Of a stretch of 36,044 nt of DNA, positions 27,172 through 36,044 are shown in pieces. This DNA is from Planctomycetota bacterium (lineage in GTDB: Bacteria; Planctomycetota; UBA1135). The first letter of the stretch is position 1. Each line of letters opens with the position of its first letter. The stretch covers positions 1-36,044 of the forward strand of contig JAPYTC010000002.1 of NCBI GenBank assembly GCA_029941685.1. The letters are read 5' to 3'. Under the pieces are notes generated by a model that was given only the letters and a program-made list of their open reading frames with translations, was not told the origin of the DNA and searched no databases. The translations under genes and the position numbers were made by a program.

Positions 27172-27252
27172 TATTATTTTTACAATAAAGTCCCCCATTA
27201 TTTCAGTTTGATGGTATTATTTGCGTATCGAGAAAAGTTAAAGATTCCCTTA

Positions 27253-29025
27253 ATGTCTAGTTTTAACAGACATTCTCCAATGACTCACTCAACAACATCC
27301 CCGAAATTTGTGATCGCCGCTGTGGTTTTTTGCCTTGGCGCCACCGTAACAACAGCTCAGCAGGTCGCTGATGCTGGTGGTTGGTACGGTAAAATCCAGC
27401 AAGATAGCAGCCACCGCATCGAGATGCCTAGTGCGACTCTGTCTGGGGGCAACGATGTGTTTATTTCGAGTGACATCGATAATGACGGCTCTGCCGATTA
27501 CATAGCGGCAGGTATTTACGTCAACCCGATCTCAGGTATGTCATGGGCACGTGTTTACGTGTATTCTGGCTACACCGGCAGAAGATTATTCACTTGGGAG
27601 AACAAATATGTCGACTTCGGAGATCGTCTAGAAGTAACGATTGCCGGCGACATCAACTCCGATGGTTTCCCCGACATCTTGCTCGGTGCACCTAAAGCTA
27701 CCACTATGGGTAAGCAGCATTGTGGTGTCGCCCTCCTTATCTCTGGCGCTACCGGAAAAACAATCAAACTATGGCATGGCAATAGCCCTGGCGCATACTT
27801 TGGCGCCTCAGTCGCTGGTGTAGACGATGTCGATCGTAACGGCTTTCGCGATGTGCTTATTGGCGCCCCTGGCACATGGCTAGGTCAGCCAAACGTGGGT
27901 ACAGCTCACGTGTTCTCTGGTTCATGGAATGGCGACCCTAACTTTGGTCAGCACTTATATACCTTTACTGGCAGTCACGCCGATGCTGGCTTTGGCACTC
28001 AAGTAGGCGCTGCCGACGACATAAATCGCGATGGCTACCCCGACATTATTGTCAGCGCTCCAGGCTTTGATTCTACTCGTGGCCACGACTACCCTGGTAC
28101 GGTCGACGTCTACTCTGGCCTAGACGGCTCATCATTAGCACATTGGCAAGGACGCCACCGTGGTCACCACTTCGGTTATAGCATTGCTGGCGTAGGTGAT
28201 ATTGACCGCGACGGCTACCCTGACATCGCAGTCGGGCTACCTGCCTTCTTAACCGATCCAGGTATCGCTCAAGGTGGCGTTTTAGTCTTTTCTGGCCTAA
28301 CGCACAGCGTTATTCGTCGCTACGAGAGCCACGAACTAGCTGATGGCTTTGGCGCTTGCATTGCAGCAGTAGGTGACACAAACGGCGATTTTTGGCCTGA
28401 TGTGTTTATTGGTGCACCATTAGCCGAAAATGGTAGCGGCTCTGCAACTCTGTTTTCTGGCGAAAATGGCGCGATTCTGTTCCGCGCAGTAGGCGACGAC
28501 AATACCTCTCGCCTAGGCACCTCGCTCAGTTCTTCGGGTAGCCTCAACCGCTATGGTTTCGTTGATCTATTAGCCCTGTCATCATCAGCCACCTTAGGTT
28601 CGATGATTTCGCGCTACAGCTTCATGGAGGGTATCGATTTACCAAAGGGCAACAGCATCTCGGCGAGCAACCCTACGCGGATTCAAATCAATGTCGATAT
28701 GCCACGCGAAATGAGTGGCCAGGTTTACCGAATCCTAGCTACCAATACTGGTACAACGATCTGGCTTACCCCCCAAGGCATCCAGATTCCTCTAGCTGAT
28801 AGCAGCATTTTGCGCCGTTCAATCACCAATAGCCTGCCGCCCTTCTTCAGGAGAGATCTTGGGTATCTAGACTTTGTTGGCAACGCAATAGCCACAATCG
28901 ATTTCCCTTCGGGGCATCTGTCAAATCTTGTTGGCACTAGCCTTCATTTCTGCGCGATTGTTTACGACGCTAACGGCTATATAGAAGCCTCTACGGTCGC
29001 CAAAGAGCTACAGGTAGTTTTCTAG
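27253..29025 (+). CDS. secreted FG-GAP repeat (integrin-alpha-like beta-propeller) protein
   Basis: Repeated DINSDGFPDILLGAP, DVDRNGFRDVLIGAP, DINRDGYPDIIVSAP, DIDRDGYPDIAVGLP, DTNGDFWPDVFIGAP. Start uncertain (TTG 27208, ATG 27253 or ATG 27280). Confidence 0.92.
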   Translation: MSSFNRHSPMTHSTTSPKFVIAAVVFCLGATVTTAQQVADAGGWYGKIQQDSSHRIEMPSATLSGGNDVFISSDIDNDGSADYIAAGIYVNPISGMSWARVYVYSGYTGRRLFTWENKYVDFGDRLEVTIAGDINSDGFPDILLGAPKATTMGKQHCGVALLISGATGKTIKLWHGNSPGAYFGASVAGVDDVDRNGFRDVLIGAPGTWLGQPNVGTAHVFSGSWNGDPNFGQHLYTFTGSHADAGFGTQVGAADDINRDGYPDIIVSAPGFDSTRGHDYPGTVDVYSGLDGSSLAHWQGRHRGHHFGYSIAGVGDIDRDGYPDIAVGLPAFLTDPGIAQGGVLVFSGLTHSVIRRYESHELADGFGACIAAVGDTNGDFWPDVFIGAPLAENGSGSATLFSGENGAILFRAVGDDNTSRLGTSLSSSGSLNRYGFVDLLALSSSATLGSMISRYSFMEGIDLPKGNSISASNPTRIQINVDMPREMSGQVYRILATNTGTTIWLTPQGIQIPLADSSILRRSITNSLPPFFRRDLGYLDFVGNAIATIDFPSGHLSNLVGTSLHFCAIVYDANGYIEASTVAKELQVVF

Positions 29026-29108: not shown

Positions 29109-32100
29109 ATGCATAGATACCTACCCTTAGCTTTACTTGCCCTCCCAATGGTTGCTTTCAGTAGTACTGGGTATGCGCAAGAAGAACAAGTTGTGAATTC
29201 CGAAGAAGTGCTGCTACGAAGTGCGCGCAACGCGGTTGCCTTGGGCAACTTAGAAGACGCCGCGACTCGCTACGAAGACTTGCTTCGACAATACCCACGT
29301 TCTACCGAAGGGTTAAATGAATACGCGGGTATCTTAGTGCAGGAGCGGCGATTACTCGAAGCTGTTACGCAATACGAAGCGCTTATCCGCGTCGATGCGA
29401 ATAGCACTCAAGCGCGTATTTCTTTAGCAAACATTTACATGGAGATGAAAGAGCTAGGGTACGCAGCCGAACAACTCGAAAAAGCCTTAGCTATCGACCC
29501 TGAATTAATTGAGGCCGGCATCATGCTAGCCCGTATTCATTCATGGAACGACGACTTCGAAAAGGCCACCGAGGTTTACCAAACATACCTTCAGGGTTTA
29601 GACACTAGCGATCCAGCGACTCGCCAGCTTATGGTGGCGTTATTGCTCGACACGCGGCGCCCGGGTGAAGCGCTACCGGTATTAAAAGAATTGCTCGAAG
29701 AAAGCCCTACAGATTCAATGGTGTTGGCCGACATGGCGCGAGCATACACCATGCTAGGCAATCACGTCGAAGCCATCGGCATTGTCAGAGAACTGTCTGG
29801 CCTCGATACGGTTGATAGCTCAACCCTACTCGAGCTTTCTTACTTCATGCGCGACTCGGGCAACTTCCGCGCTGCCATCGAACTTAACGAGCGTGTGTTG
29901 GGCGACAACGCCAATGATGCCGACGCGCTCATTGCGAATGCCAACTTGCATCTCGCGGCGCATTTACCAAACAAGGCATTGCAAATTTTGCTTAGCTCAG
30001 ACCTCGATCGTGAGTCACGCGGTTACATGCAAAGCAAAGGCTTGTATCACTCCATGACTGGCGAGTACGCTCACGCTCTAGAAATCTACCATAGTTTGTT
30101 AACGGATAATGCTACCGATTACGAAACACGCTTAGCTCTTGGAAAATTGTATTGTCAAAGCGGTGAATACCAAAAAGCCAAAGCCGAATTAAAGAAAATA
30201 CCTGGCTCGTCGTCGTTTAGTCAAAAAAGCGAGCTCGAACTTGCGCGTTGTTTATTCGTTGAGCGCCGCTACCAAGAAGCGGCCGCGCATTGCCGCAGTT
30301 TAATGAACCGCAACCCTCGTGATTTCGAGGCTGTTGTGTTGCTTTCGCGCTCATACATAAAACGCAATATGGCGACCGAAGCGCGTCATATGTGCCTGCA
30401 GTTTATTAACAGCAACCCGACCGTTTCTTACGGAACCCTAGCTGTTAAAACTGCTCTTGCTGAAGCGTATCTAGCCGAAGGCCAAGGCTTACGCGCCAAG
30501 ACTATGTTCCAAGAGGTTTTACGCGACCCTTATGGGGGTCTAATCCCAGAAGCACGCTACGGCTTGGCGAAGGCCGACTCGCGCTTGACTGGCGCCGACA
30601 GTGCAAACGCTCAATTACTCGAACAGGGTATGGCTGGCATGGGAGCCGACTTTAGATTGTTAATGAACCTTGGTCAGTTAGCTTCTGCCGATGGCGATTA
30701 CAAACTGTCCATTCAGTTGTTTAACCAAATTCTTAGCTGGGACCCAGGTAACCAGGCTGCTCTTGTCAGCCGGGGCGAAGCCAAAGCATCATTACGCGAC
30801 GAAGGTATGACCCAATCAGCGCTAACGGACTTCGATCGTTTATTACGCCAAGCACCATCGAACATCCGTGCAAGACTTGGTGTCGCGCGTATTAATGCCG
30901 CAATGAAAGACTACAAAAAAGCCGTCATTAACTACGACTTGATTCTGCAACACGACCCCAGTTACTCTGTGGCTATTCGCGAGAAAGCACGCTCACAAAC
31001 TTGGTCGCAAAACCCTGATGCTGCCGCATCGACTTACGCGCAACTTGCCAAGACCGAGTCATTCAATATCAGTGGCACCGGTATGCCTAGCGCCCTCGAT
31101 GTCGAGGGCATGCACCTGTCTGGTTCAGCTCAGGCTGAAATCGAGGCAATCACTAGCCTCGAGCAACGTTCAAAAGACATGTTGTTAAATCGCTTCTACT
31201 ACAAGTCGATACCTTTGCTGCGTAGCTTAATTGAAACTGAGCCATCCAACCAAGAGGCCCGTTTCGACTTGGCTCAAGCGTTAAGCAATACTGGTCAAAC
31301 GACTTCGGCTATTAATGAATACGAAAAACTGTTGCGGATTAACCCCAATCACCGCGAAGCAGGCATGGCTTTGTCACGCAATCAACATGATTTGTTACCG
31401 AGATTTCACTCCTCGCTTGAGTCCATCAACCAAGACTCTACAGGATACGATCAAGATCCATCGAACCCGAATGGTGGCTCCAGCTTGAGCACCACTAGAC
31501 TGTCACTCGGTACATCACTGCCACTTGGCGACGTAGACGAGCGACTACACTTAACGTATAGCAAACTCGACCTCAGCCCAGGATTCGGAGAGATACCCGA
31601 AGTCAATCAAGAGGGGTATTCCGGAAACATCTTTACTATCGGTTACAAAAATACCCCTGAGCGCAATGAGCAAGGTGCGAACCGCTTCTTGTTGCATTCC
31701 AACTTAAACCTAGAGGGCTACGTTCACGATCTTGATAAGTCAATCACTTACGACATCGGTGTCGACGTCACTCTCGATGACCAGCTCACTTTGTTCGCCA
31801 ACGCATTTAGCGAAAACGTGATTGAAAACCAAAACAGTTTGGTGACCCAGCGTGAGCATCAAATCTTACTTGGCCACACCGATGCCGGCTTTGATCCCCT
31901 TACCGATAGCGACCTGACTGGTCCTGGTGGCTTAGATCAAGGTTACTTTGATTCTTTCCGTGGTTTCGCTACGAGCCCAGTATCTAGAACGGGCGCCAAT
32001 GTCGGTTTGCGTTACACAGCTAGCCGCTTCTGGGAGTCAAATATGGAGCTGACTAATGCGAGTTACTCCGACAAGAACTCGTTGCTACGCTTCCATTTCG

Positions 32101-32492
32101 CCAACATGCTGAACATCACGCTACCACCGAAAGAGCTTAAGGTGTCTTTGGTTTACGATTATCAAGATTTCGGTGACGAGACTAGCGGCGACTATCACCG
32201 AAATGTAGGTGCGGCACGCTATTTCGCGCCAAACAACTACGCCTCATACTCAGCTGCTATCGAGTGGCGCCAATGGATAGGCAAAGATTTCTTTAAGGGA
32301 GCCAATCAAACCTGGTACAACCTCGCCTATGCAAGCATCTGGGACTCAAATGGTGGTAATTACGACAACATCAGTGCCAAATTTAATTACGATTTTGACG
32401 ATCACATGTCTTTAATAATAAGCACAAGTATGTTGAATTCGGCCTACTACAACTCAAACACAGCCTTTTTCGGCTTCGATTACCGTTTTTAG
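29109..32492 (+). CDS. BcsC-like TPR protein with C-terminal outer-membrane beta-barrel
   Basis: Signal peptide; around 15 or more TPR-like units; C-terminal ~350 aa beta-rich, ending STSMLNSAYYNSNTAFFGFDYRF (terminal aromatic typical of OM barrels); directly upstream of the bcsA-like gene. Confidence 0.85.
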   Translation: MHRYLPLALLALPMVAFSSTGYAQEEQVVNSEEVLLRSARNAVALGNLEDAATRYEDLLRQYPRSTEGLNEYAGILVQERRLLEAVTQYEALIRVDANSTQARISLANIYMEMKELGYAAEQLEKALAIDPELIEAGIMLARIHSWNDDFEKATEVYQTYLQGLDTSDPATRQLMVALLLDTRRPGEALPVLKELLEESPTDSMVLADMARAYTMLGNHVEAIGIVRELSGLDTVDSSTLLELSYFMRDSGNFRAAIELNERVLGDNANDADALIANANLHLAAHLPNKALQILLSSDLDRESRGYMQSKGLYHSMTGEYAHALEIYHSLLTDNATDYETRLALGKLYCQSGEYQKAKAELKKIPGSSSFSQKSELELARCLFVERRYQEAAAHCRSLMNRNPRDFEAVVLLSRSYIKRNMATEARHMCLQFINSNPTVSYGTLAVKTALAEAYLAEGQGLRAKTMFQEVLRDPYGGLIPEARYGLAKADSRLTGADSANAQLLEQGMAGMGADFRLLMNLGQLASADGDYKLSIQLFNQILSWDPGNQAALVSRGEAKASLRDEGMTQSALTDFDRLLRQAPSNIRARLGVARINAAMKDYKKAVINYDLILQHDPSYSVAIREKARSQTWSQNPDAAASTYAQLAKTESFNISGTGMPSALDVEGMHLSGSAQAEIEAITSLEQRSKDMLLNRFYYKSIPLLRSLIETEPSNQEARFDLAQALSNTGQTTSAINEYEKLLRINPNHREAGMALSRNQHDLLPRFHSSLESINQDSTGYDQDPSNPNGGSSLSTTRLSLGTSLPLGDVDERLHLTYSKLDLSPGFGEIPEVNQEGYSGNIFTIGYKNTPERNEQGANRFLLHSNLNLEGYVHDLDKSITYDIGVDVTLDDQLTLFANAFSENVIENQNSLVTQREHQILLGHTDAGFDPLTDSDLTGPGGLDQGYFDSFRGFATSPVSRTGANVGLRYTASRFWESNMELTNASYSDKNSLLRFHFANMLNITLPPKELKVSLVYDYQDFGDETSGDYHRNVGAARYFAPNNYASYSAAIEWRQWIGKDFFKGANQTWYNLAYASIWDSNGGNYDNISAKFNYDFDDHMSLIISTSMLNSAYYNSNTAFFGFDYRF

Positions 32493-32560: not shown

Positions 32561-32709
32561 TATCAACATAAAGCGTATTATTGAGATATCCTTTAATAAG
32601 ACGTTAGGACACTTCCCCTCTCTTCGTCTACACCCCTAACAACATTCGAGATTTGAAGCCCTCAATCGACTACACCATTGGCTCCTATGCGCACGCCGAG
32701 ACCCAGCAA

Positions 32710-35700
32710 ATGGGTCCTCCGCCGTTTTTGCGTAAGCTGTTAATGCTCTTTGCTGTACTAACAACGGTTGCATACCTCATCTTCCGTGTTATGTTCACAT
32801 TGAACCTGAACGGTGGTTATGCGACTTTTGCGTCCATGCTTTTGCTTTTCGCAGAATTTTCTGGTGGCATCAGCCTTATGCTGTATTTTTTCCAGATCTG
32901 GGAGATTGAAGATGTGCCGCAACTCGAGCCACTCGAAGACGTAACGATAGACGTTTACATCCCGACATACAATGAAGATGCTTCATTGCTGCGTGCGACA
33001 GTTAACGCATCAAAAGCGATGGAGTACAAGCATCGCACCTTCCTCCTAGACGACGGCAACCGCCAAGAGATTCGTGAGCTTGCCGAAGAGTTAGGCATCG
33101 ACTACATTGCACGTGAAGAAAACCGTCACGCCAAGGCCGGCAACCTCAACCACGCACTTGAAATAACTGATGGCGAATTTGTGGTGGTGCTTGACGCCGA
33201 CCACATTCCGTCGCGTAACTTTATTACGCGCATGCTTGGTTTGTTCCGCGACCCAAAGCTAGGCTTCGTGCAATCGCCCCACGCCTTCTACAACTTCGAA
33301 AACTTCCAATCCTCCGTCGATTACTCAAAGGGCAAATACTGGGAAGAAGGCCTATTGTTCTACCAGCAAATCCAACCTGGGCGTAACCACTGGGACTCGG
33401 TGATTTTCGCCGGCTCTGCTGCAATGTTCCGCCGCACCGCTCTAGAAGACGTTGGCTTGGTGGCTGTAGAAACCATTACCGAAGACATGCACACGGGTAT
33501 CCGCATGTCTGCAAACGGCTGGCGATCGCTATTCGTTTCTGAATCACTAATCGCCGGAATGGCGGCTCCTGACGTTACCACATTCCACTCGCAGCGTTTG
33601 CGATGGGCCGAAGGTAACGTTTCAATTTTGTGGCATGACAATCCGCTGTTCATGCGCGGTCTATCACTTTCTCAGCGACTCTCCTTTTGGGCTTCAATTG
33701 TTCACTGGTTTAGTGGTTTTACGCGCATGGCAGTTTACCTAACGCCAATTTTATTGTTGTTCACTGGCGTGGCGCCTTTTACCAAGTTCACGCCACCTAT
33801 CGTGGCCATGCTAGTTTTCTACATTGTCGTAACACATGCAGTGCTGCGCACCATTTCTGGGAAACACGCAAGTTTGTTAAACATCGAATTATTTGCGATG
33901 ATGACATTCTGGACAAACTGTCGTGGTTGTTGGAAGGCGATTTTCAATCGCAAGAAATCTAAATTTGTTGTAACAGCTAAACGTGGACGTCAAGACAACG
34001 CGTCAATGGCACCATTGTTAGTACCACAAGCGCTAATATTTGGCGTGGGTGGATTGGCAATCATTTGGGGTACTTTCCGGGTCATGTTTGATCCTAACCC
34101 CGACTTCCTTGGCCTAGCAATTGCCGGCCCGCTCACCCTTTATCAAATGTGGTTGGCTTGGGCTGTAATTCGAAGGTCACTGGCAGCCGAGAACAAACGC
34201 TTCTCCTACCGCCATCGTGCTGGATTACCTGTTAGCTTCCGCTTAACCGGTCCAAACGGCGAAGAGTTCCATGGTGCAGGTATCACCAACGACATCAACG
34301 AAAAGGGTGTCGGATTCGTTGCCTTTGCTAATTATCCCGACGGTTCTGAGGGCGAATTTGATATCTCTATTGGTGGTAAAGTCGTCACCATGCCTGGCCG
34401 AATTCAGCATTCTGATGCTGATTTAATCGACCCATTGCTCGAGCGACCAAAAGATGTGATTACTATGACTCGCTACGGTGCGATGTTTATTAATCCGCCT
34501 GTTCTCGCTGTCGATGCGCTGATGGACGCATTAATGAATTACGTGGTGCCGATGCAATATGATCAATTTGCTAAATCCGGAAGCAAGCCCAATCGCCTCC
34601 TAGGATGGCTTGCGGATCCTGGTAGCTGGCGCAAGCGCAAAGAACCGCGCTTGTCATATCGCCTACCCCTCGGAATTTCCAAGGGCAATCCTGACGGCAC
34701 TGGCGAAAGCCATATTATCGAAGCAGCTACCGACGATGTGAGCCGTTCAGGTTTACGCACGCTTTTACCGGAAGAACTTGAAGTGGGCTCGACGCATGAA
34801 TTCCGTCTGCAAACCCCTTTCGGCAAAGTCAGTGGGGTGTTCGTAGTTCAGCGCATCATCGATAGAATCGTAGGCCCAGAGATCAAAAAAGAACACGTGT
34901 TCCGCTTTGTTTCTTTCGACGGCCAATCACGCTCGTTAATTCATGACTTGCTGAAGGCATCTAGCGAAAAGCCAATGCAGTCCGTACTGCGATCCCACGG
35001 GCGCAACCGCAATGCTCCCATCTATCAACCCATTGCCGTCACATTATTATGTGCAGCATTCTTGATTCCAGGAAGCCTATCGCTGTTTCAATTCATTAAT
35101 CGCGACGATATTTTCTTACGCGACATGGTTGAGGCCGGTTTACACACACGCCCCGATCGTGAGCGTTTCGAAGATCTGCTACATCTAACCATTAAAGAAG
35201 AGAAAAACTTCGCACACATGAACATGTTGATGGACGTACTTTTAGCCGAAGGACGTCGTGGTGAAGCTGATAGTTTGACGCGCTTGATGCTGCGTATTGA
35301 GCCAAACAACCTTGGCTTACGTTTTGCATTAGGTAACCTGTTAGTTGATGTCGACCGCGTTGAAGACGCAGCTGAGATTTTCCAGAGTGTTCTTGATGGT
35401 ATGGAGCGCCGCCCCGAACAAGCGCGCAATCTAGACCGTGCTGAAATTCTGCTTGCGGCCGCTCGAAATGCGACGCGCTTGCTCGACGGCGCCGCCCAGG
35501 CTATTGCATATTTCGAAGAGCTAGAGTTAACCGCTGATGTGTCAACCGACATTCTCGGCGAACACGCTGCGGTATTGTTCGCGCTTGGCGACCTCGAAGC
35601 AGCAGCTAAACTTTATGAAACATCTGGCACTGACATTACCGCGCACATTCGCGTGGCACAAATTCATGCAGCGCAACGCAATTTCAAAGCGGCCGAACAA

Positions 35701-36044
35701 GAGTGCTTGTTAGCTCTCGAGATCGACCCTAATAGTCGTGATGCGGGCGTGCTTTATGGTCAGGTGATGGCCTCGCAACAAATGCCAAAAGTGGCGTCAC
35801 GAATTTTCAGCAAGTTGCGCGACCTCTACCCTAACGATGTCGAGATTCTGACTAGTTACTCAGAAGCTCTGCTCTGGGCTGGGCGCCACCAAGAAGCTGC
35901 AGAGCAATTCTTAGTCTTGCTCGAAGATCAGCCAGTAAACCGTCGTGTTTGGCTAGGTTACTTAGATTCAGTTTCTGGTTTAGACGCAATCTCTGCCGAA
36001 CAACTCGAGCCTTGTTTTAGCATCAAGCGCAATTTGGTTGATGC
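32710..36044 (+). CDS. bcsA: cellulose-synthase-like (BcsA) family-2 glycosyltransferase with two PilZ-like domains and C-terminal TPR extension, truncated by window edge
   Basis: Translated by reading: IDVYIPTYNED, LLDDGNRQEIRELAEELGIDYIAREENRHAKAGNLNHAL, VVLDADHIPS, TEDMHTG, QRLRWAEG (D,D,D,QxxRW). PilZ-like: RFSYR...DINEKGVGF and RLSYR...DVSRSGLR. Then TM segment VTLLCAAFLIPGSLSLFQF and TPR-like repeats to the window end. A TTG at 32653 is an in-frame alternative start. Confidence 0.93.
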   Translation, partial: MGPPPFLRKLLMLFAVLTTVAYLIFRVMFTLNLNGGYATFASMLLLFAEFSGGISLMLYFFQIWEIEDVPQLEPLEDVTIDVYIPTYNEDASLLRATVNASKAMEYKHRTFLLDDGNRQEIRELAEELGIDYIAREENRHAKAGNLNHALEITDGEFVVVLDADHIPSRNFITRMLGLFRDPKLGFVQSPHAFYNFENFQSSVDYSKGKYWEEGLLFYQQIQPGRNHWDSVIFAGSAAMFRRTALEDVGLVAVETITEDMHTGIRMSANGWRSLFVSESLIAGMAAPDVTTFHSQRLRWAEGNVSILWHDNPLFMRGLSLSQRLSFWASIVHWFSGFTRMAVYLTPILLLFTGVAPFTKFTPPIVAMLVFYIVVTHAVLRTISGKHASLLNIELFAMMTFWTNCRGCWKAIFNRKKSKFVVTAKRGRQDNASMAPLLVPQALIFGVGGLAIIWGTFRVMFDPNPDFLGLAIAGPLTLYQMWLAWAVIRRSLAAENKRFSYRHRAGLPVSFRLTGPNGEEFHGAGITNDINEKGVGFVAFANYPDGSEGEFDISIGGKVVTMPGRIQHSDADLIDPLLERPKDVITMTRYGAMFINPPVLAVDALMDALMNYVVPMQYDQFAKSGSKPNRLLGWLADPGSWRKRKEPRLSYRLPLGISKGNPDGTGESHIIEAATDDVSRSGLRTLLPEELEVGSTHEFRLQTPFGKVSGVFVVQRIIDRIVGPEIKKEHVFRFVSFDGQSRSLIHDLLKASSEKPMQSVLRSHGRNRNAPIYQPIAVTLLCAAFLIPGSLSLFQFINRDDIFLRDMVEAGLHTRPDRERFEDLLHLTIKEEKNFAHMNMLMDVLLAEGRRGEADSLTRLMLRIEPNNLGLRFALGNLLVDVDRVEDAAEIFQSVLDGMERRPEQARNLDRAEILLAAARNATRLLDGAAQAIAYFEELELTADVSTDILGEHAAVLFALGDLEAAAKLYETSGTDITAHIRVAQIHAAQRNFKAAEQECLLALEIDPNSRDAGVLYGQVMASQQMPKVASRIFSKLRDLYPNDVEILTSYSEALLWAGRHQEAAEQFLVLLEDQPVNRRVWLGYLDSVSGLDAISAEQLEPCFSIKRNLVD

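Follow-up and report, generated by a model that had tools for sequence, protein, structure and literature searches.

Architecture of the synthase and its locus

By the window we mean the whole 36,044-nucleotide stretch analyzed, which comprises bases 1–36044 of a 53.7-kb contig in the draft genome of a Planctomycetota bacterium (2.0 Mb, 299 contigs, 83% complete). A gene on its forward strand at 32653–36044 encodes a BcsA-like synthase with the domain order GT2-PilZ-PilZ-TM-TPR; all synthase features given below lie on the same strand. The start codon is a TTG at 32653, with an alternative ATG at 32710. As an earlier note made from the sequence alone had described, a single open frame (32653–36042) runs out of the window. 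On the source contig we followed it to an end at ~36312, ~270 bases past the edge, for a product of 1219 residues whose translation carries four X from a run of N immediately beyond the window.

The gene at 29109–32492, also on the forward strand, encodes a putative BcsC/PgaA-like TPR porin partner of 1127 residues, with a signal-peptide-like start, a long and strongly matching TPR region and a C-terminal alternating hydrophobic pattern. No BcsC barrel model (BCSC_C) is found among the 25 Pfam matches listed for this protein; the terminal pattern, together with homology to the TPR porin of anammox relatives (full-length BLASTP match, 2e-17), points to a putative C-terminal outer-membrane barrel. 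Just beyond the window, on the strand opposite to the synthase, lies a gene for a GH5 cellulase (L003:11317-12534).

The GT2 catalytic domain (32935–33642) contains DDGN at 33049–33060, DAD at 33193–33201, TED at 33478–33486 and QRLRW at 33592–33606, in agreement with the BcsA-type core read there before, and its catalytic residues are invariant in an alignment of 24 family members. Pfam recognizes GT2 (3.7e-24) and Cellulose_synt (5.7e-12), with GT2 and TPR far over their cut-offs. Among PDB sequences, E. coli BcsA matches best (6e-82, over residues 24–539), with R. sphaeroides BcsA next, and BcsA structures also rank first in a Foldseek search with the full-length model. The TIGR03030 CelA model scores 401.1 bits over residues 29–555, under its equivalog cut-off of 699.1, so the identity of the product is not assured.

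For the entire protein encoded in the window, the AlphaFold2 model is of moderate confidence, with unreliable domain packing (pLDDT 79, pTM 0.61). Along the chain it places helices at residues 24–48 and 55–81, the GT domain, helices at 339–371, 381–401, 453–479 and 485–514, two barrels, a helix at 791–815 and the TPR region. The first two TM helices (32722–32895) are the only ones at the N terminus. PDB alignments begin at query residues 24–27, opposite residue 54–67 of R. sphaeroides BcsA or residue 196 of the E. coli protein, and thus start after the TM1-TM2 helices of BcsA that pack against BcsB, which are missing here. The next four (33667–34194) correspond to the channel helices, and between them lies the FVVTAK gating loop (residues 438–443; 33964–33981), whose FxVTxK residues F438, V440, T441 and K443 are invariant in the 24 members. 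The glutamate by which BcsA tethers its gating loop (R. sphaeroides E371) aligns with the variable P306; an invariant acid, D307, sits one residue off, which leaves the tethering acid of this synthase uncertain.

Full-length relatives occur in about 30 Planctomycetota genomes at 33–86% identity, including that of Blastopirellula marina, whose strain DSM 3645 has two copies of the same architecture. Within the same order they span 1160–1220 residues and share 37–48% identity outside the genus, and longer versions of 1760 and 2353 residues also exist. This conservation refutes a fusion that is unique to the window genome or artefactual. Matches in a plasmid collection were to the GT2/BcsA part only, none spanning 80% of the query. 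Because genome contigs were scanned with family-specific peptides, tandem-PilZ synthases outside the phylum are possible.

Among the 25 well-flanked loci (5 kb or more to both sides of the synthase), the TPR porin is present in 23, the GH5 gene in 21 and both in 19, and no other neighbor of the synthase is widely conserved. The catalytic motifs of GH5 are retained in nearly all copies. We rejected GH8 (BcsZ) as the usual hydrolase of window-type genomes, since it was found in only 3 of 20 and on contigs other than that of the synthase. The neighboring GH5 cellulase and the phylum-wide conservation go beyond the earlier note, as do the loss of the BcsB-holding N-terminal helices and the undetected BcsB described below.

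The tandem PilZ domains

PilZ1 (34198–34578) consists of a barrel and a helix and carries RFSYR at 34198–34212 and DINEKG at 34291–34308, and PilZ2 (34633–34989) has DVSRSG at 34735–34752; all three motifs are where they had been reported. PilZ2 (residues 661–767) scores above the Pfam cut-off (37 bits versus 22.5; 4.3e-9), and its equivalent segment is recognized in 12 of 16 members. PilZ1 goes unrecognized by Pfam in the window protein; the equivalent segments of 13 of the 16 members are recognized (best 9e-9). Profile–profile comparison matches the two domains to each other with 94% probability (E 8.6e-8), aligning R516 and R520 with R662 and R666, and DINEKG with DVSRSG. When the tandem is modeled alone (AlphaFold2, pLDDT 80), it forms six-stranded barrels at residues 526–612 and 672–755 with a helix after each, and Foldseek matches it to MrkH, YcgR, VCA0042, Alg44 and the PilZ domain of BcsA. 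Because the HMM, profile and fold evidence agree, we conclude that the synthase has two real PilZ folds, as had been proposed, and not one only. Single RxxxR matches are uninformative (11 in the protein against 5.3 per shuffle), and for this reason we relied on those three lines of evidence instead; together with the unusual paired spacing RxxxR...[DN]x[SNT]xxG (p about 0.0015), they rule out chance motifs as an explanation.

The arginine motif of the second domain had previously been taken to be RLSYR. Since the profile alignment sets R516 and R520 on R662 and R666, the motif is instead RKEPR at 34636–34650 (R662-KEP-R666). Conservation concurs and excludes RLSYR: R670 is present in only 8 of 24 members, versus 21 for R662 and 22 for R666. 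The description of PilZ1 as deviant and PilZ2 as intact likewise does not hold at the family level, where PilZ1 is the better conserved domain. Its R516 is kept in 23 of the 24 members and R520, D547 and G552 in all of them, with Asn, Ser or Thr at the serine position; N549 is invariant in the anammox relatives as well. For PilZ2, D695 is retained in 21 members and S697 in 18, and G700 is Ala in 17. The PilZ2 motif decays in some relatives: it is gone in both B. marina copies, and these, along with one further member (L059), lack R662 and D695. These two revisions apart, the architecture first read from the sequence is largely real.

Judged by residue conservation across the members and by the motif loss in B. 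marina, PilZ1 is the putative constant sensor and PilZ2 the variable one; as the B. marina copies lack the motif, binding by PilZ2 would not be essential everywhere. Both domains keep RxxxR and the Asp motif in most relatives, which makes dual c-di-GMP sensing by the synthase plausible. The genome encodes four GGDEF proteins, so c-di-GMP is probably made and control by this messenger is plausible.

The TM-TPR tail and its anammox counterpart

An extra TM helix (residues 791–815; 35023–35097) follows the PilZ modules and leads into a TPR superhelix that spans 35101–36042 and continues past the window, with Pfam TPR matches from residue about 880 onward. Both Pfam and the AlphaFold2 model thus bear out the tail claimed for this protein. 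The predicted topology, with six TM helices before PilZ1 and one after PilZ2, places the TPR region in the periplasm; it had been suggested to be either cytoplasmic or periplasmic, and the predicted topology favors the latter.

A two-protein version of this arrangement is found in anammox-type genomes. Four genomes with hydrazine synthase alpha (PF18582; G178, G271, G361 and G300) and those of a sister genus have GT2-PilZ-PilZ synthases of 730–850 residues, some with a third PilZ, and these anammox-type genomes also encode a separate TM-TPR protein of 137–161 residues. In seven anammox-lineage synthases, R662, R666, D695, S697 and G700 of PilZ2 are invariant. At two loci (L104 and L105) a TPR porin lies downstream, joined in L104 by a GH8 (BcsZ-family) protein, and in both anammox-type loci where all three genes stand side by side the TM-TPR gene lies between synthase and porin. 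In the fused synthase, it is the TM-TPR junction that the small TM-TPR protein matches, with 97% probability (E 2.3e-11, score 70.6; 68.2 in a control run). Control TPR windows score lower, at most 46 within the same synthase and at most 50 (49.6) within the porin, which rules out mere TPR resemblance. Read most simply, these alignments make the tail of the window synthase, homologous at its start to the small protein, the anammox accessory TM-TPR subunit fused to the synthase. The earlier proposal that the tail docks to a TPR-rich partner gains support from the adjacent porin in 23 of 25 loci and from the position of the anammox TM-TPR gene between synthase and porin; the contact itself is a prediction.

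Absence of detectable BcsB

To our knowledge, Gram-negative cellulose synthases regulated by c-di-GMP are described as BcsB-dependent. PF03170 (BcsB) detected no protein in any of the 154 genomes of the order, nor in any genome carrying the tandem-PilZ synthase. Across the phylum sample, clear BcsB matches (E about 1e-105) were found in only four genomes, none with a tandem-PilZ synthase, indicating that the model is able to detect BcsB in this phylum. All four belong to f33, the family that includes the anammox bacteria, and come from different genera than the tandem-PilZ synthases. In two of the BcsB loci (L110 and L112), BcsA lies beside BcsB, and a Pfam scan of one of these BcsA proteins finds just one PilZ. 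In a GT2-core tree, whose outgroups are few and long-branched, these two BcsA proteins group with those of Proteobacteria and away from the tandem-PilZ synthases. Given how few genomes of the phylum encode BcsB, its failure to co-occur with the synthase carries little statistical weight; what counts is that the synthase regularly occurs without BcsB. The neighbor survey and PF03170 gave no sign of a hidden BcsB beside the synthase, weak PF03170 matches in giant ORFs of another family (f73) being disregarded; it is possible that a BcsB has diverged too far for PF03170. A BcsB-free relative has been discussed before: in RiGT2 of Romboutsia ilealis the helix forming a coil with BcsB is missing, from which the enzyme was judged not to require BcsB (PMC10374906).

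Proposed mechanism and alternative readings

We consider it probable that the synthase serves as catalytic subunit in a Bcs-like cellulose-secretion system of Planctomycetota that lacks BcsB, with twin PilZ domains, a TM-TPR segment as a substitute for BcsB, a porin and a GH5 cellulase. The GT2 core would convert UDP-glucose into a β-glucan, most likely cellulose, and pass the chain across the membrane through its own channel. PilZ1, which like the PilZ of BcsA follows the final channel helix without a break, would bind c-di-GMP and thereby free the FxVTxK loop. PilZ2 would be a duplicated sensor, probably binding c-di-GMP in most members, that tunes the response or holds the following segment in position. 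The added TM helix and periplasmic TPR would act as a built-in partner in the place of BcsB and hand the glucan to the adjoining TPR porin, and the adjacent GH5 cellulase may trim or release the chain, like BcsZ elsewhere.

The role of PilZ2 admits other readings. In the same machine it might be only a structural spacer linking the channel to the TM-TPR segment, with PilZ1 as the sole c-di-GMP sensor, which we regard as a real possibility though not the favored one. The replacement of G700 by Ala in most members and the loss of R662 and D695 from the B. marina copies and L059 would fit a spacer, as would the two-barrel layout of the best fold matches, MrkH and YcgR, in which one barrel is a non-canonical companion. 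However, R662, R666 and D695 are retained in 21–22 of 24 members, the PilZ2 motif is invariant in the seven anammox-lineage synthases, and the third PilZ of some of those synthases, which also carries the motif, suggests selection for extra binding sites. A division of labor, in which opening of the catalytic gate falls to PilZ1 and PilZ2 works through the membrane helix on the periplasmic TPR, is a speculative idea that we think improbable; if true, c-di-GMP would govern both synthesis and passage through the porin.

It is also conceivable, if rather unlikely, that the product is a non-cellulose β-glucan of mixed or other linkage, as with the BcsA relatives RiGT2 and BgsA. The sub-threshold TIGR03030 score and the separation of the synthase from canonical BcsA in the GT2-core tree are consistent with this, as is the (1,3;1,4)-β-glucan made by RiGT2, a BcsB-less BcsA homologue with a PilZ (PMC10374906). 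On the other hand, the nearest solved structures are true cellulose synthases, and both the GH5 “Cellulase” of window-type loci, albeit from a broad family, and the GH8 of an anammox-type locus point to a β-1,4-glucan. We consider it extremely improbable that the protein is a conventional BcsA whose RxxxR motifs arose by chance, joined to an unrelated TPR protein by an assembly or annotation error: RxxxR alone is common and the window sequence comes from a fragmented draft genome, but the full-length architecture recurs in some 30 assemblies obtained independently, B. marina DSM 3645 among them, and HMM, profile and structure each identify two PilZ folds.

In the open-access papers searched, we found no description of a GT2-PilZ-PilZ-TM-TPR synthase. 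The BcsB-less system that we favor looks like a distinct, uncharacterized version of the bacterial cellulose machine and not a new kind of system. A large environmental clade and its anammox relatives appear to have swapped BcsB for TM-TPR, as a separate protein or fused depending on the lineage. Such a replacement offers a natural experiment on what BcsB does, and the single chain makes it possible to measure what difference two or three stacked PilZ sensors make. Anammox aggregates, moreover, matter in wastewater treatment.

Comparison with known systems

The synthase shares with canonical BcsA (E. coli and Rhodobacter/Cereibacter sphaeroides) the GT2 motifs, the channel helices, FxVTxK and a PilZ right after the last channel helix. 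It differs in having two N-terminal TM helices where BcsA has four, an additional PilZ, and an added TM helix with periplasmic TPR, and in the lack of BcsB. The BcsA PilZ layout of RxxxR followed by [DN]xSxxG occurs twice, the serine being relaxed to N/S/T in PilZ1.

Type IV cyanobacterial operons (XcsA/Tll0007) likewise pair a BcsA-like, PilZ-containing synthase with an alternative periplasmic partner and are BcsB-less (PMC12430437). Their partner is an HlyD-like protein with a TolC route, and they have one PilZ, whereas the planctomycete synthase has a TM-TPR tail and a TPR porin. RiGT2 and clostridial BcsA-like proteins also have a PilZ, lack the N-terminal BcsB-coiling helix and have no bcsB alongside (PMC10374906). 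Unlike the planctomycete protein, RiGT2 has seven TM helices, one PilZ and no TPR, comes from a Gram-positive and therefore porin-less organism, and makes a mixed-linkage glucan. In the alginate system, Alg8 and Alg44 combine a GT2 synthase with a protein of PilZ-TM-periplasmic-domain layout, and a TPR protein leads to the porin; there, however, the components are separate proteins, the periplasmic part of Alg44 is of the membrane-fusion type rather than TPR, and the polymer is a different one.

The synthase gene in the window has two candidate start codons, a TTG at 32653 and an ATG at 32710, and residues 1–20 of the protein are of low confidence in the structure model. Just beyond the window edge, a run of N in the window's own contig (L003:11044-11055) places four X residues within the TPR tail of the synthase. 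Upstream of the adjoining TPR porin gene lies a gene for an FG-GAP repeat protein (27208-29025), for which conservation has so far been observed only in the sister genome (locus L034).

Two relatives of the synthase are very long, one of 1760 residues (L064:9902-15184) and one of at least 2353 (L066:29-7090); in both, the core is the same and the TPR array is much longer. The complete genome of Planctomycetales bacterium 10988 encodes the synthase in two frames (L065:9836-13685), a possible frameshift. At three further loci, the second GH5-like copies (L042:3917, L045:3770, and L056:3579) lack the NEPH catalytic motif and may be inactive.

Among synthases of the anammox lineage, we observe a triple tandem of PilZ domains at L101:7579-10116 and L105:8821-11277, with Pfam matching three stretches in each. 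A paralogue with two PilZ domains sits directly downstream of the three-PilZ synthase at L101. Loci from other genera of the anammox-containing family (L110 and L112) display an ordinary cluster of bcsA-bcsB-bcsZ (GH8-like)-bcsC-like, and the BcsA of this cluster type has a single PilZ domain in the one locus scanned with Pfam.
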